Assembly: GCA_028868875.1 (NCBI GenBank) | Contig: JAGWTS010000003.1 | Location: 1 to 53,417 of the forward strand | Length of the DNA: 53,417 bases | Reading direction: 5' to 3' | Source: Burkholderiales bacterium | Lineage (GTDB): Bacteria; Pseudomonadota; Gammaproteobacteria; Burkholderiales; Burkholderiaceae_C | Part shown: in pieces, positions 39,118 to 53,417 of the stretch | Layout: each line of letters starts with the position of its first letter | How positions within the stretch are numbered: the stretch's first letter is position 1 | Notes under the pieces: model-generated | What the model was told of the DNA's origin: nothing | Seen by the model: the letters and a program-made list of their open reading frames with translations, nothing else | Databases searched by the model: none | Translations under genes and position numbers: made by a program

Positions 39118-40176
39118 CTACTGAAGCAGCCGGCCGGCGGCGTCGAACGCCATCGCCCAGGACGCATCGGGGACGAGGCCGAGCGTCTGGCCCGAGGCGA
39201 CCTCGGCGGCCTCGGTCCCGACCTTGGCATGGAGCAGCTCGGCGACGCCCTCGACCCGCAGGTGCAGGATCGACGAATCGCCCAGGTGCTCGGCCAGGAC
39301 TACGCTCGCCGCGATGCCCGCTCCCGCCGGGCCCACGTGCAGGTGTTCCGGGCGCAGCCCGGCGCGCTGGGCGGAAGCCGGCGCGGCGCCGGCCAGCGCG
39401 TCCCACAGCGCCTGATGCGCGGCGTCGGCGCCGCTGGCGGGCGGGCGGTCGACCAGGTTGATGCGCGGCGCGCCCAGAAAGGTCGCGACGAACTCGTTCG
39501 CCGGCCGGTTGTACAGGTCCATCGGGGCGCCGAGCTGCTCGACCACGCCCTTGTTGAAGACCGCGATGCGGCTGCCCAGCGTCATCGCCTCGACCTGGTC
39601 GTGGGTGACGTAGATCATCGTCGTGCCGAGCTCGGCGTGCAGCCGCGCGAGCTCGATGCGCATGTTCACGCGCAGCGCGGCGTCGAGGTTGGACAGCGGC
39701 TCGTCGAAGAGGAAGACCTTGGGCTTGCGCACGATCGCCCGGCCGATCGCGACGCGCTGGCGCTGGCCGCCCGAGAGCTCCTTCGGGTAGCGCCCCAGCA
39801 GCTCGGTGATGCGCAGGATCTCGGCGGTGCGCCCGACCTGGCGCTCGCGCTCGGCGCGGCCGAGGCCGGCCATCTTGAGCGAGAAGCCCATGTTCTCGGC
39901 CACCGTCATGTGCGGGTACAGGGCGTAGCTCTGGAACACCATCGCCGCGCCGCGGTCCGCCGGGCGCAGGTCGTTGGCGCGCTGGCCGGCGATCTCGAGC
40001 TCGCCGGCGCTGATCTCCTCGAGCCCGGCGATCATGCGCAAGGTGGTCGACTTGCCGCAGCCCGAGGGGCCGACGAAGACGAGGAACTCGCCCTCGTGCA
40101 CCTCGAGGTCGATGCCCTTGATGACCTCGACGCTGCCGTAGCTCTTGCGGATGCCCCGCAGCGATACCTGTCCCAT
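39118..40176 (-). CDS. Sugar ABC transporter ATP-binding protein (MalK/UgpC type)
   Basis: ATPase of a CUT1-family sugar importer with 352 residues. Walker A GPSGCGKSTT, Q-loop MVFQSYALYPHMTVAENMGF, signature LSGGQRQRVAIGRAI and Walker B VFLFDEPLSNLDA are all present. The C-terminal TOBE/regulatory domain (about 235-352) marks the MalK group, in which one ATPase can serve several transporters. It is the last gene of the binding protein-permease-permease-ATPase operon. The start at 40176 follows the 71-bp gap after the second permease; the open frame upstream of it is antisense to nothing real and is rejected. Confidence 0.93.
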   Translation of the reverse strand: MGQVSLRGIRKSYGSVEVIKGIDLEVHEGEFLVFVGPSGCGKSTTLRMIAGLEEISAGELEIAGQRANDLRPADRGAAMVFQSYALYPHMTVAENMGFSLKMAGLGRAERERQVGRTAEILRITELLGRYPKELSGGQRQRVAIGRAIVRKPKVFLFDEPLSNLDAALRVNMRIELARLHAELGTTMIYVTHDQVEAMTLGSRIAVFNKGVVEQLGAPMDLYNRPANEFVATFLGAPRINLVDRPPASGADAAHQALWDALAGAAPASAQRAGLRPEHLHVGPAGAGIAASVVLAEHLGDSSILHLRVEGVAELLHAKVGTEAAEVASGQTLGLVPDASWAMAFDAAGRLLQ

Positions 40177-40247
40177 GTCGAATTCCCTTGTTCTCAGCGG
40201 CCGCGGCCCGGCGCCGGCGGCTGGAGTCGCAGCCCCCGGCCGCGCCC

Positions 40248-41072
40248 TCACTTCACGGCCCCGGCGGTGAGGCCGGAGATGAGCTGGCGCGACGAGATCG
40301 CGAACAGCACGAGCAGCGGCACGGTGGCGATCGCCGAGCCCGCCATCAGCGCGCCCCATTCGGTGTCGACCGGGCTTTGCAGGCTGCGCAAGGCCAGCGG
40401 CAAGGTGTACATCTCGGGACTGCGCAAGACGATCAGCGGCCCGATAAAGTTGTTCCACGAGGCGATGAACGTGATCAGCCCGAGCGTGCCCAGCGCGGGC
40501 TTGAGCAGCGGCAGGACGATGCGCCAGTAGATGCCGAACTCGCCGCAGCCGTCCATGCGCGCGGCCTCGACGAGTTCCTTGGGAATCGACGACGAGGCGA
40601 ACTGGCGCATCAGGAAGATGCCGAAGGCGCTGGCCGCGCCCGGGATGTAGAGCGCGCGCGGCTGGTCGATCCAGCCCAGCGCGTCCATGATCATGAAGGT
40701 CGGGATCATGTTCATGAACGAGGGCAGCAGCATCGTCCCCATCACGAGGGCGAACAGCGGCGCCTTGAAGCGGAACTCGAAGAGCGCGAAGGCGTAGCCG
40801 CCCATCGAGCAGAACAGCAGCGTGAGCGCGGTCGAGGCGAGCGCGACGTAGAGGCTCCAGCCCAGGCTGCGCCAGAACGGGATGCGCTCGGTCAGGATCT
40901 TCAGGTTGGCCAGGAACTGGTCGCCGAAGACCAGTGGCGGCGGCAGGCTGAAGATCTCGGTGCGCGAATGGGTCGCGAAGACGAACATGAAGTAGAAGGG
41001 CGCGAGCATGATCAGCGAGCCGGCGCCGACCAGCCCGTAGGCGGCCCAGGGGGCGAGGCGATCGGTTTTCAT
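40248..41072 (-). CDS. Sugar ABC transporter permease (MalG type)
   Basis: Inner-membrane permease of 274 residues with six predicted TM segments. TM1 is at about 12-34 (YGLVGAGSLIMLAPFYFMFVF). The EAA cytoplasmic loop that docks the ATPase is at about 166-190 (VEAARMDGCGEF ... IVLPLLKPA). The end TSRQLISGLTAGAVK is the standard MalG/LacG C terminus. It pairs with the MalF-type permease 12 bp upstream. The substrate is inferred from context to be beta-glucan oligosaccharides. Confidence 0.93.
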   Translation of the reverse strand: MKTDRLAPWAAYGLVGAGSLIMLAPFYFMFVFATHSRTEIFSLPPPLVFGDQFLANLKILTERIPFWRSLGWSLYVALASTALTLLFCSMGGYAFALFEFRFKAPLFALVMGTMLLPSFMNMIPTFMIMDALGWIDQPRALYIPGAASAFGIFLMRQFASSSIPKELVEAARMDGCGEFGIYWRIVLPLLKPALGTLGLITFIASWNNFIGPLIVLRSPEMYTLPLALRSLQSPVDTEWGALMAGSAIATVPLLVLFAISSRQLISGLTAGAVK

Positions 41073-41084
41073 TCGAGGGGCTCC

Positions 41085-51912: not shown

Positions 51913-53256
51913 ATGAGACAAGTTCAGATCCCGTTCACGATGCCGGCTTGTGCGCTGGCTGCCAGCCTGCTCGTCTCCGCCTGTGGCGGCGGCGGCGCGT
52001 CGGCGCCAGCGGTCACGACGCCCGCGCTCACGGCGCAGACGATCAGCTTCGCCTCGCCGGGCAACCAGACCGTGGGCGGCGCAGTGCCGGCGCTCGCGGC
52101 GACGGCCAGCTCGGGCCTGGCGGTGAGCTACGCGTCGAACTCGACATCGGTGTGCACGGTCAGCGGCAACGCGGTGTCGCTGCTGGCTGCGGGCAGCTGC
52201 AGCATCACCGCGAGCCAGGCCGGCGACGCGACTTACGCCGCGGCCACGCCCGTGACCGACACCTTCGGGGTCGCCGCGGCGGCGGCGCCCCAGGCGCAGA
52301 CGATCAGCTTCACGTCTCCGGGCAACCAGACCCTGGGCACGGCGCCGGCGGCGCTCGCAGCAACCTCGAGCTCGGGCCTGGCCGTGACGATCGCGTCGAC
52401 GACGCCCACGGTCTGCACCGTCACCGGCACGATGCTGACGCTGGTCTCGGCGGGCCAGTGCACCTTGACGGCGACCCAGTCCGGCAACGCCAGCTACGCC
52501 GCGGCCACGCCCGTGACCGACGGCTTCACGGTCGCTGCGGCACCGGCCACGGTGTCGACCCTGACCTTCTCGTCGGGATTCGCGGCTGCGAACCTGACGG
52601 TCGAGGGCGGCTCCTTCGGCGGCTACAGCGGCAGCAACCTGGACGGCTACAACTGCGGCGCCCCGGCGGCCTGCGGCAGCGGCGGCAGCTTCACGCCGAC
52701 GGTGACGGCGGCCAACAGCGGCTTCTACTACTACTACCAGACGCCGAGTCCGGCGGCGGGCGAGTACGTCGGCGTCTTCGTCCAGGCGCCGGGGCTCACG
52801 ACCGGCATCAGCGGCAGCGCCGACACCCCGGGGGTGCAGATCGCCGGCCAGACGACGATGAAGTTCAGCTTCGGCGAGAACCCGGAGTGGTTCGCCAGTG
52901 CGACGCACAACTTCGGCGTGATGCTGACGCTGGGCAAGCACTACACGACGAGCGGGTCCTGCAACATCAAGCTGCTGGCCGTGGTCACGCCGACGGCCGC
53001 CGCGGCGACGAACTACTCGATCCCGTTGAGCTCGTTCGCGGTGACGCAGAACTGCGCCGTCTCCACCCTCACGGTGGCCCAGGCACTGGCCATGGCGCCG
53101 ATCTCGCAGATCGACTTCCAGGGCGACGGTGGCGCCGCGGCGCTGCCCACCGTCAACGGCTTGACGACGGGCGCCAACCTGAGCGTGGCCAACACGGCCT
53201 CGCCGCCGGTGTATCCGACGACGCTGGTCGTCAACGGCGCGATCACGTTCCAGTGA
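51913..53256 (+). CDS. Lipoprotein with two Ig-like repeats and a possible glycan-binding domain
   Basis: Predicted lipoprotein of 447 residues with no named family recognised. The signal peptide ends in the lipobox VSAC (C24) and a Gly run. Two tandem beta-rich repeats of 87 residues follow, starting AQTISF at 41 and 128. They share SPGNQT, SSGLAV, CTV and ATPVTD and look like bacterial Ig/MBG-type stalk domains. Residues about 215-447 are aromatic- and Gly-rich (NSGFYYYYQTPSP, KFSFGENPEWF), with NYSIPLSSF and ISQIDFQGDGG, resembling carbohydrate-binding beta-sandwiches. There is no catalytic motif. With two repressor-type operators upstream it probably belongs to the glucan regulon and may hold glucan at the cell surface. 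That function is inferred. Confidence 0.78.
   Translation: MRQVQIPFTMPACALAASLLVSACGGGGASAPAVTTPALTAQTISFASPGNQTVGGAVPALAATASSGLAVSYASNSTSVCTVSGNAVSLLAAGSCSITASQAGDATYAAATPVTDTFGVAAAAAPQAQTISFTSPGNQTLGTAPAALAATSSSGLAVTIASTTPTVCTVTGTMLTLVSAGQCTLTATQSGNASYAAATPVTDGFTVAAAPATVSTLTFSSGFAAANLTVEGGSFGGYSGSNLDGYNCGAPAACGSGGSFTPTVTAANSGFYYYYQTPSPAAGEYVGVFVQAPGLTTGISGSADTPGVQIAGQTTMKFSFGENPEWFASATHNFGVMLTLGKHYTTSGSCNIKLLAVVTPTAAAATNYSIPLSSFAVTQNCAVSTLTVAQALAMAPISQIDFQGDGGAAALPTVNGLTTGANLSVANTASPPVYPTTLVVNGAITFQ
52033..52545 (+). repeat. 261-bp direct repeat within the lipoprotein gene
   Basis: Two consecutive units (about 52033-52293 and 52294-52545) encode the two Ig-like domains. Short blocks are nearly identical at DNA level (GCGCAGACGATCAGCTTC; CCGGGCAACCAGACC; GCCACGCCCGTGACCGAC), showing internal gene duplication. 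Confidence 0.75.
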
Positions 53257-53325
53257 CCGCGTCGGCGCGGGCGCGGGCGGCCTTGCCGCGGCCCGCGCCC
53301 GCGCGGCCCTGCAGCCCTCCGGGTT

Positions 53326-53339
53326 TGCAAGCGATTTCA
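53326..53339. promoter_or_regulatory. Variant LacI-type operator at the right edge
   Basis: TGCAAGCGATTTCA differs from the 51760 site at one base. It lies 70 bp after the lipoprotein stop and 55 bp before an ATG at 53394 that could open the next gene (MPSPSPKP, cut by the window edge). No more of that gene is visible. Confidence 0.5.
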
Positions 53340-53417
53340 TGGCGGACCGGCTGATCGAGCCGGCCCGCGTCGCGAATTCCACCGAGTCCCGGGATGCCCA
53401 GCCCCAGCCCCAAGCCC

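Follow-up and report, generated by a model that had tools for sequence, protein, structure and literature searches.

Gene content of the locus

The window, meaning the whole stretch of 53,417 nucleotides of Burkholderiales DNA that was analysed, ends in a locus encoding a sugar ABC importer, two LacI-type regulators, glycoside hydrolases, a lipoprotein and a predicted porin. The importer is encoded on the minus strand and comprises a UgpC/MalK-type ATPase (39118..40176; PF00005, 1.9e-32, and TOBE_2; NCBIfam UgpC subfamily over cut-off), permeases of the MalG/UgpE (40248..41072; PF00528, 2.9e-19) and MalF/UgpA types (41085..42020; PF00528, 2.9e-16), and a sugar-binding protein (42064..43335; PF01547, 3.6e-22) whose best solved relative, 8bfy (E 2.8e-31), is named a cellobiose-binding protein. 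LacI-family regulators A (43507..44562, minus strand) and B (44735..45760, plus strand) are encoded divergently and are identical at 239 of 351 aligned positions. Both carry an N-terminal LacI helix-turn-helix (HTH; PF00356, 50.8 and 54.0 bits, cut-off 27) and a periplasmic-binding-protein-like sensor domain (PF13377, 127 and 140.2 bits, cut-off 26.5). They are sisters in trees (SH-aLRT 84-85); a very long row for a paralog from the same genome, present in the first tree, was dropped from later ones together with two duplicates of other rows. Ten LacI-type HTHs were found in the genome of origin and, among the eight that could be read, the TVSRILN helix occurs only in A and B.

A GH17 lipoprotein with a lipobox recognised by eye (45839..47623, minus strand) scores 27.2 bits in Pfam, just below the cut-off of 28.2, matches the solved GH17 structure 6fcg by phmmer (E 6.6e-23) and shows a weak CBM30-like match at its C-terminus. 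Next to it lies the gene for the predicted outer-membrane porin (47653..49038, minus strand). On the plus strand, 49238..51508 encodes a GH81 endo-beta-1,3-glucanase with a signal peptide identified by eye (PF17652, 2.3e-48, 165.7 bits, cut-off 25.6), matching solved 6fop (E 1.1e-157) over residues 38-753. Calls for GH81, GH17, the ABC operon and both LacI proteins, made in a sequence-only reading of the window, hold. The lipoprotein encoded at 51913..53256 (plus strand, lipobox by eye) gave no match in a Pfam search. Its structural model, of moderate quality (pLDDT 76.8, pTM 0.51), contains two Ig-like repeats and a CBM-like beta-sandwich. The top Foldseek row was 2c26, a CBM (TM 0.37 by target), and CBM11 6r3m was likewise matched (E 6.5e-7; TM 0.65 by target, 0.29 by query). 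The protein is predicted to bind glucan at the cell surface.

The first codons of a further gene (53394..53417, plus strand), left unnamed in the sequence-only reading, reach the window end. This gene probably encodes a GH16 and runs on into contig C39 of the same assembly, given the 10 C-rich bases shared by both contig ends, with the reading frame kept, and the gene content of C39, ordered GH16-GH17-GH17-GH149. The GH149 (L203:2908-6252) matches 6hq6, a beta-1,3-oligosaccharide phosphorylase, over residues 16-1047 (E 7.4e-217). GH1 was not found in this assembly; loci of relatives hold GH16, GH30, GH1, MFS_2 and glucokinase.

A palindrome precedes the transcription units

The sequence-only reading had reported one palindrome, TGAAAGCGCTTTCA, before each structural transcription unit, and a pattern search recovered all six sites with at most two mismatches. 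They precede the ABC operon (43423..43436, one mismatch), porin-GH17 (49070..49083, exact), GH81 (49181..49194, exact), the lipoprotein gene (51760..51773 and 51783..51796, one mismatch each) and the edge gene (53326..53339, two mismatches). With up to three mismatches the window contains eight matches, compared with a mean of 1.28 (sd 1.12) over 100 shuffles, none of which reached eight. Both further sites have three mismatches and lie at 24146 and between the two lacI genes (44672..44685), where this weak operator-like site could possibly serve autoregulation. A position matrix was built only from matches with at most one mismatch, which inflates its core values, and hence was not used.

The whole 5.7 Mb assembly (a 571-contig draft with 6% contamination) was scanned, as the earlier reading had proposed, in the form of a pattern search allowing two mismatches. 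Eight places were found, six of them within the 14 kb locus; the binomial probability of six of eight falling in 14.3 kb is 6.9e-15, for a stretch picked after the fact. The reversed pattern gives two places genome-wide, so the two sites outside the locus equal the number expected by chance and were treated as background. One (C316:8573) lies directly ahead of a LacI-GH3 gene pair, the HTH of that LacI being unlike those of A and B; the other (C538:2207) sits between two ORFs identified by eye, one as lldD-like and the other as uxuA.

Distances from the sites to the chosen start codons are 87 (binding protein), 31 (porin), 43 (GH81), 139 and 116 (lipoprotein) and 54 bases (edge ORF), the porin gap becoming 76 bases if translation starts at an ATG 15 codons further in. 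Operators of the LacI family have been described as even palindromes with a central CG, more than 75% of them at -140 to -30 (PMC4052901); the present sites are even palindromes with a central CG, 31-139 bp from the chosen starts. Two promoter-like sites were found in 43300-53417, against 0.3 expected, each by consensus match only: TTGACG-17-TATAGT for the ABC operon (43444..43472, minus strand) and TTGCCA-18-CATGAT for the lipoprotein gene (51727..51756, plus strand). Their -10-like hexamers, that of the ABC operon being sigma-70-like, end 7 and 3 bases, respectively, before an operator, which suggests that LacI A and B, the putative ligands of these sites, would repress rather than activate.

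Conservation of the operator in other species

Of 80 GH81 loci from other species, 72 contained the exact 14-mer (201 copies in 1,314,123 bases); neither the reversed pattern nor any of 419 control palindromes built from its half-site letters had a single copy there. The 14-mer was missing from L059, L108, L110, L111, L114, L115, L117 and L120; six of these eight have a GH81 at 47-52% identity, and L115 is a 3.4 kb fragment. In a count made without using the palindrome finding, its core, GAAAGCGCTTTC, tied with the overlapping AAAGCGCTTTCA as the commonest 12-mer upstream of GH81 (65 of 78). Gene assignments in relatives were taken from homology matches, since picking by length gave some wrong frames. 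On this basis 60 of the 64 gaps between divergent porin and GH81 genes contain two exact operators, many relatives have an exact site at the same place before the ABC operon, and LacI kin adjoin exact sites in many of those stretches that reach that far.

Among 399 family genomes the exact site was found in 26 of 28 with GH81 versus 41 of 371 without (Fisher p 1.8e-20). GH81-containing genomes have between 0 and 7 exact sites; positions were listed for 13 of these genomes, and in 11 of the 13 all listed positions fall on the contig that carries GH81. Of the 21 genomes without GH81 that were examined, 18 have exact sites at ABC-GH1 kin and at a TonB-dependent receptor. Conservation at GH81 loci, the top-ranking 12-mer core and the association with GH81 in 399 genomes indicate that the palindrome is not a product of chance, and chance clustering is ruled out by the genome scan, the unbiased 12-mer count and the 419 control palindromes.

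A porin family that accompanies GH81

The porin of the window has no Pfam match and is not recognised by NCBIfam; among 36 members of its family, this one included, Porin_4 was matched in one and OMP_b-brl in five. No convincing relative emerged from a profile search of solved structures (best E 0.2), but a fold search did find matches. The AlphaFold model (pLDDT 87.3, pTM 0.82) has 16 strands of at least eight residues, and porins head its list of fold matches, the best being chitoporin VhChiP (5mdq; E 9.5e-17; TM 0.70 by target, 0.55 by query), with general porins Omp32, BpsOmp38 and OmpF also included. The earlier porin call is thereby upheld as a predicted barrel, although Pfam is silent. 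The family was detected in 26 of 28 genomes with GH81 and in one of 371 without, in a search that scored at most four first-look candidates per genome and could miss a diverged copy in a GH81-less genome; the sole match in the latter group is weak and partial (55 positions, E 8.7e-4) and was thought to be noise. In 79 of 90 stretches with the porin, a GH17 match adjoins it on the same strand. The locus suggests a function for a family whose window member the two databases do not recognise.

No SusC, SusD or TonB-receptor family was found among the ten locus proteins with Pfam and NCBIfam. Nine TonB plug domains were found in the genome of origin, none on C364 or C39, and no plug-domain contig of the draft has a site with at most two mismatches, a result whose scope is limited by the contig edge. 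GH81-less relatives do have a TonB-dependent receptor with an exact operator. Since exact sites lie both at porin/GH81 loci and at TonB receptors, two modules for outer-membrane uptake share one operator. A search of 35 genomes detected the receptor in four of 28 with GH81 (G332, G037, G076 and G259) and in three of seven GH81-less known holders; because it missed the other four (G111, G252, G160 and G118), its negatives were left unused. Changes between porin and receptor were counted on the LacI tree, in which L112 and L164 have no porin match and the L112 contig belongs to G037, a genome with the receptor. Four changes resulted when L112 was labelled receptor and L164 left out, and three when both were labelled porin, two being forced in either case.

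We give even chances to the proposal that, in many Burkholderiales, the TonB-dependent receptor is replaced by an undescribed family of porins that travels with GH81 and is dedicated to beta-1,3-gluco-oligosaccharides, the operator and, often, the importer staying fixed while at least two exchanges between the uptake machines took place on the LacI tree. If true, the locus would be the equivalent of a polysaccharide utilisation locus (PUL) that works independently of TonB, its regulator and operator forming a stable chassis for swapped uptake machines.

Regulator, substrate and alternative interpretations

That the locus is a LacI-repressed regulon for a laminarin- or curdlan-like beta-1,3-glucan, comprising GH81, the GH17 lipoprotein, the CBM-like lipoprotein, porin and ABC importer, is highly probable. 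The regulon put forward in the sequence-only reading is supported by gene content and by the recurrence of the site in other species, where it precedes the same genes; GH81, GH17, GH149 and GH16 point to beta-1,3-glucan, a polymer of algae and fungi, as the substrate. Because TGAAAGCGCTTTCA is identical to the cre operator quoted for B. subtilis CcpA (PMC5171806), and a central CG is common to most LacI operators (PMC4052901), sequence alone cannot name the regulator, and clustering could merely reflect sugar genes lying together under a global CcpA-like catabolite regulator, in line with the 41 GH81-less genomes that hold an exact site. Such a regulon is disfavoured, to the point of being extremely unlikely, by the scan of the genome of origin, whose two further sites do not exceed the reversed control, and by placement in relatives, where sites mostly keep to the GH81 contig or, without GH81, to LacI-ABC-GH1 kin or the receptor. 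Most LacI-family proteins are repressors, and the two operators just downstream of -10-like hexamers lie where a bound protein blocks; activation by these proteins, or reading of the site by an unlinked regulator, for which the two unread HTHs leave room, is accordingly very unlikely.

Alternatively, the main substrate could be a mixed-linkage or beta-1,4 glucan, or the walls of fungi and oomycetes, instead of laminarin from algae: the best solved relative of the binding protein is a cellobiose-binding protein, the lipoprotein resembles CBM11, which was solved with a beta-1,3-1,4 glucan, and GH81 and GH17 act also on curdlan and fungal walls. This appears unlikely given that GH81 and GH149 are beta-1,3 enzymes and that relatives' loci have GH30 and GH1, which would be apt for the beta-1,6 branches of laminarin and for short oligomers. 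Equally doubtful is a general porin placed here by history and not selective for glucan pieces; general porins are among its fold matches, yet the paired operators in porin/GH81 gaps, the adjoining GH17 and the near-confinement of the family to genomes with GH81 all argue for a dedicated role.

Under the LacI-repressed regulon, one or both paralogs would occupy the palindrome at or beside each promoter when glucan is absent, blocking transcription. Traces of hydrolysis product would enter, a beta-gluco-oligosaccharide or glucose would bind LacI, and four transcription units, probably five, would be switched on at once. The polymer, held at the surface by the CBM-like lipoprotein, would be cut by GH17 there and by secreted GH81 and GH16, and oligosaccharides would diffuse through the porin and be carried into the cytoplasm by the binding protein and ABC importer, specificities presumed here for both. 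Inside the cell they would be degraded by GH149, if C39 does join the window end, or in relatives by GH1.

Beta-1,3-glucan makes up a large pool of carbon (PMC7104365). Its uptake by Burkholderiales is little described in the literature searched, and the locus offers a concrete candidate, predicted from a model, for a laminari-oligosaccharide porin. It also provides a natural case in which uptake through a porin can be compared with TonB-based uptake governed by the same switch, and the 14-mer can be used to search genomes and metagenomes for regulons of this type.

Comparison with known systems

Laminarin PULs of Bacteroidetes devote one locus to each glycan, with glucanases and surface proteins, and LacI stands here in place of their usual regulators. 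The window differs from those described (PMC6246565, PMC6298971) in having no SusC/SusD pair. Construction without SusC/SusD, stressed in the sequence-only reading, is true of the window; it is not unusual, as gammaproteobacterial glucan clusters have been reported without SusC/D, using other TonB-dependent transporters (PMC8371827, PMC2996990). LacI-run beta-glucan regulons without SusC/D are thus already known; what is new is that the sequenced locus has no TonB-dependent receptor either, while kin with the same operator have one.

The predicted barrel is nearest VhChiP in fold, yet the two share 13% identity over the fold match, the substrate of VhChiP is chitin, and the Vibrio chitin cascade is regulated differently from this locus. 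Both would work alike, with hydrolysis outside followed by a sugar-specific outer-membrane porin (PMC3558487). The Bgl pathway of Shewanella, also proteobacterial, shares a LacI-type regulator (BglR), predicted sites before several units and its own outer- and inner-membrane uptake; it differs in its TonB-dependent receptor OmpBgl, of a kind absent from the locus, and GPH permease BglT and, as described there, has no GH81, porin or ABC importer (PMC2996990). Proteobacterial GH149 clusters have been divided into type I, with ABC and LacI or AraC, and type II, with TonB receptor, GH16, GH17 and MFS (PMC5827456). They share with this system GH149 with an ABC or MFS importer, LacI, GH16 and GH17, whereas the ABC cassette of type I is of another COG set (COG0747/0601/1173/0444/4608), type II has the TonB receptor, and the clusters as described include no GH81, porin or palindrome (PMC5827456). 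The BglR operon of Thermotoga maritima differs in its ROK-family repressor, in being one operon and, in the published description, in having no porin or GH81; it shares a laminarinase, a beta-glucosidase and a cellobiose/laminaribiose ABC transporter under one sugar-responsive repressor (PMC3750489).

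Conservation of the operator with GH81

The sequence-only reading had placed a 14-base palindrome of LacI type before the sugar ABC operon (43423), the porin-GH17 unit (49070), GH81 (49181), a lipoprotein gene (51760 and 51783) and the gene at the contig edge (53326), and all of these positions proved exact. Eight matches with up to three mismatches were counted in the window against 1.28 expected, a number reached by none of 100 shuffles; a three-mismatch site stands at 44672, between the divergent lacI genes. In the source draft genome (5,709,157 bases in 571 contigs, 6% contamination), matches with up to two mismatches occurred at eight places, six of them within the 14 kb of the locus in the window, and the reversed control pattern at two. 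The other two operator matches lie on contigs C316 and C538. On C316 (L010, 4975-8586), a two-mismatch site directly precedes another LacI regulator gene, behind which lies a GH3 gene; the pair may constitute a separate beta-glucoside switch.

A scan for relatives of GH81, one genome per species, confirmed 117, of which the best 80 were kept; their titles are mostly those of Burkholderiales or beta-proteobacterial MAGs and isolates. The exact 14-mer was present in 72 of the 80 loci (201 copies in 1,314,123 bases), and neither the reversed pattern nor any of 419 palindromes with the same half-site letters occurred in them even once. Loci devoid of exact copies were L059, L108, L110, L111, L114, L115, L117 and L120. 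Exact sites together with porin-GH17 and GH81 occur, among others, in the loci of three cultured relatives, Leptothrix discophora CCM 2812 (L062), Paucibacter sp. KBW04 (L072) and Ideonella alba 4Y16 (L097). When 12-mers were counted independently of this finding in 78 regions of at least 150 bases upstream of GH81, the commonest were GAAAGCGCTTTC and the overlapping AAAGCGCTTTCA, each in 65 regions. These 78 regions contained two or more exact 14-mers in 60 cases, one in 5 and none in 13; for the gaps between divergent porin and GH81 genes (n = 64, window counted), two exact copies were found in 60, one in 2 and none in 2. Among 399 sampled family genomes, a set that shares members with the 80 loci, GH81 (PF17652) was detected in 28 and the exact 14-mer in 67, corresponding to 26 of the 28 GH81-containing genomes versus 41 of the 371 others (Fisher p 1.8e-20); the reversed control was absent from the matches listed in this search. 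The two GH81-containing genomes without an exact copy were G093, which is 55% complete, and G096, which carries one-mismatch sites in both of its GH81 stretches.

Other arrangements were also seen. In L107, L113 and L109, two of them titled Limnohabitans, GH81 directly follows the ABC operon and the porin gene lies downstream on the same strand; sites follow GH81, and L107 and L113 have them before the gene of the sugar-binding protein (SBP) too. L059, titled as a Holophagaceae MAG, encodes porin, GH17 and GH81 at 52-62% identity and GH149 at 42%, and the operator was not found there within two mismatches; this locus was either assigned to the wrong bin or transferred with the regulator left behind. 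In the window, a perfect 11-base inverted repeat (GTTTACCCGGG ... CCCGGGTAAAC) at 49132-49166 separates the two operators of the porin/GH81 gap. GTTTACC and GGTAAAC occurred together in such gaps in 9 of 73 pooled loci, window counted, and the repeat is possibly the site of another regulator or a hairpin.

A predicted porin, probably dedicated to GH81 loci

The window porin (47653..49038, minus strand), divergent from GH81 (49238..51508, plus strand), is a predicted outer-membrane barrel with no match to a Pfam or NCBIfam family; among 36 aligned members, window counted, one matched Porin_4 and five OMP_b-brl. Its AlphaFold model (pLDDT 87.3, pTM 0.82) contains 16 strands of at least eight residues, and the best solved fold match was chitoporin VhChiP (5mdq; E 9.5e-17, TM 0.70 by target and 0.55 by query) at 13% identity, ahead of porins from Burkholderia and Neisseria. 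A profile built from these 36 members, scored on at most four first-look candidates per genome so that strongly diverged copies may escape, matched 26 of 28 GH81-containing genomes (not G037 or G096) versus 1 of 371 others, the latter match covering 55 positions at E 8.7e-4. This pattern points to a dedicated part rather than a general porin.

The same operator with a TonB-dependent receptor

Twenty-one of the 41 genomes with the motif and no GH81 were inspected. In 18 of these, exact sites marked both a TonB-dependent receptor and kin of the ABC-GH1 genes of the window, the receptors being assigned by similarity except for four proteins checked against Pfam (plug in all four, barrel in three). 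Both sets lay on separate stretches or contigs in some of the 18 genomes, and in G084 the importer set seen comprised only a permease fragment and GH1. LacI kin were present in the stretches of 16 (not G021 or G350), and kin of tryptophan halogenase, cupin, GH16, GH30 or glucokinase were often present. G206, G184 and G065 showed none of these features. Tryptophan-halogenase-like and Cupin_8-like proteins accompany a TonB receptor near exact sites in L171, L174, L177, L223, L225 and L226, from genomes without GH81.

Porin and receptor were found together in three GH81 stretches (L088, L090 and L156, of which L088 and L156 look like one genome), and ten GH81 stretches, some short or truncated, had no porin match. 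When mapped onto the LacI tree (40 proteins), porin and receptor labels require four changes after relabelling and three before, two changes being forced by well-supported branches. A TonB-receptor search was positive in 4 of the 28 GH81 genomes and failed to recover receptors known from genomes without GH81, so that a genome-wide absence of the receptor from GH81 genomes cannot be claimed. The source draft encodes nine TonB plug domains, none of them on the locus contigs or the contigs of the two other sites (C364, C39, C316 and C538).

Gene content and borders of the locus

The window encodes an SBP-permease-permease-ATPase operon, two divergent LacI regulators, a GH17 lipoprotein, the porin, GH81 and a further lipoprotein, signal peptides and lipoboxes being read by eye. 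GH81 matched the solved GH81 6fop over nearly its full length (E 1.1e-157), GH17 matched 6fcg (E 6.6e-23) with a Pfam score one bit under the cut-off, and the SBP was closest to 8bfy, a cellobiose-binding protein (E 2.8e-31). The lipoprotein model (pLDDT 76.8, pTM 0.51) shows a C-terminal beta-sandwich and two Ig-like repeats. Carbohydrate-binding modules took two of the three top places in its fold search (2c26; CBM11 6r3m, TM 0.65 by target and 0.29 by query), S-layer proteins and cadherins scored too, and SGBP-B, from a mixed-linkage glucan locus of Bacteroides, appeared with low TM. We infer that the lipoprotein may hold glucan at the cell surface.

Contig C364 is the entire window, and the locus is thus truncated at 53417. 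The same 10 bases occur at its end and at the start of contig C39, and the frame opening at ATG 53394 runs on into the GH16 of C39; the two contigs are likely, though not proved, to join. C39 (6,972 bases) encodes GH16, two GH17 proteins and a protein of 1,114 residues without Pfam family (L203:2908-6252) that matched a solved GH149 beta-1,3-oligosaccharide phosphorylase (E 7.4e-217). GH149 homologs were present in fetched stretches of eight relatives (L155, L052, L157, L162, L151, L163, L070 and L059); no GH1 was found in the source assembly. A tRNA-Arg(acg) at 38704-38780, immediately outside the ABC operon, is a possible border of the locus.

Regulation and the two LacI proteins

Only two sigma-70-like promoters, counted as consensus matches, were found in 43300-53417 versus 0.3 expected. 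One precedes the ABC operon and the other the lipoprotein gene, with 7 and 3 bases, respectively, between the -10 hexamer and the operator. Repression is the probable mode of control, because a LacI dimer just beyond the -10 would block transcription. It would be lifted by a beta-gluco-oligosaccharide or glucose, an effector proposed by analogy; a passage of PMC3750489 describes the Thermotoga ROK repressor BglR as responding to cellobiose and glucose. Judging from the gene families, glucan would be hydrolysed outside the cell, and the products would pass through the porin, be imported by the ABC system and undergo phosphorolysis inside.

The source genome encodes ten LacI-type HTHs; among the eight that were read, TVSRILN occurs only in LacI A (43507..44562, minus strand) and LacI B (44735..45760, plus strand). 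These proteins are identical at 239 of 351 positions (68%) and are sisters in trees (SH-aLRT 84-85), which suggests a duplication within this lineage. The window alone among 114 pooled stretches contains two LacI kin. The difference between LacI A and LacI B may lie in the effector and not in the operator.

Comparison with known systems

A search of the open PMC library, which leaves out most subscription journals and RegPrecise and so falls short of proving novelty, found no report of the palindrome in Burkholderiales, of a porin tied to GH81, or of porin and TonB-receptor modules replacing each other under a single operator. Gammaproteobacterial glucan clusters without SusC/D are already known (PMC8371827), an estuarine MAG contains a cluster of GH16, ABC genes, LacI and GH1 (PMC12915301), and proteobacterial GH149 clusters comprise either LacI and an ABC importer or a TonB receptor with GH16, GH17 and MFS (PMC5827456). 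In Shewanella, a LacI regulator is likewise known to occur with an endo-beta-1,3-glucanase and uptake genes (PMC2996990).
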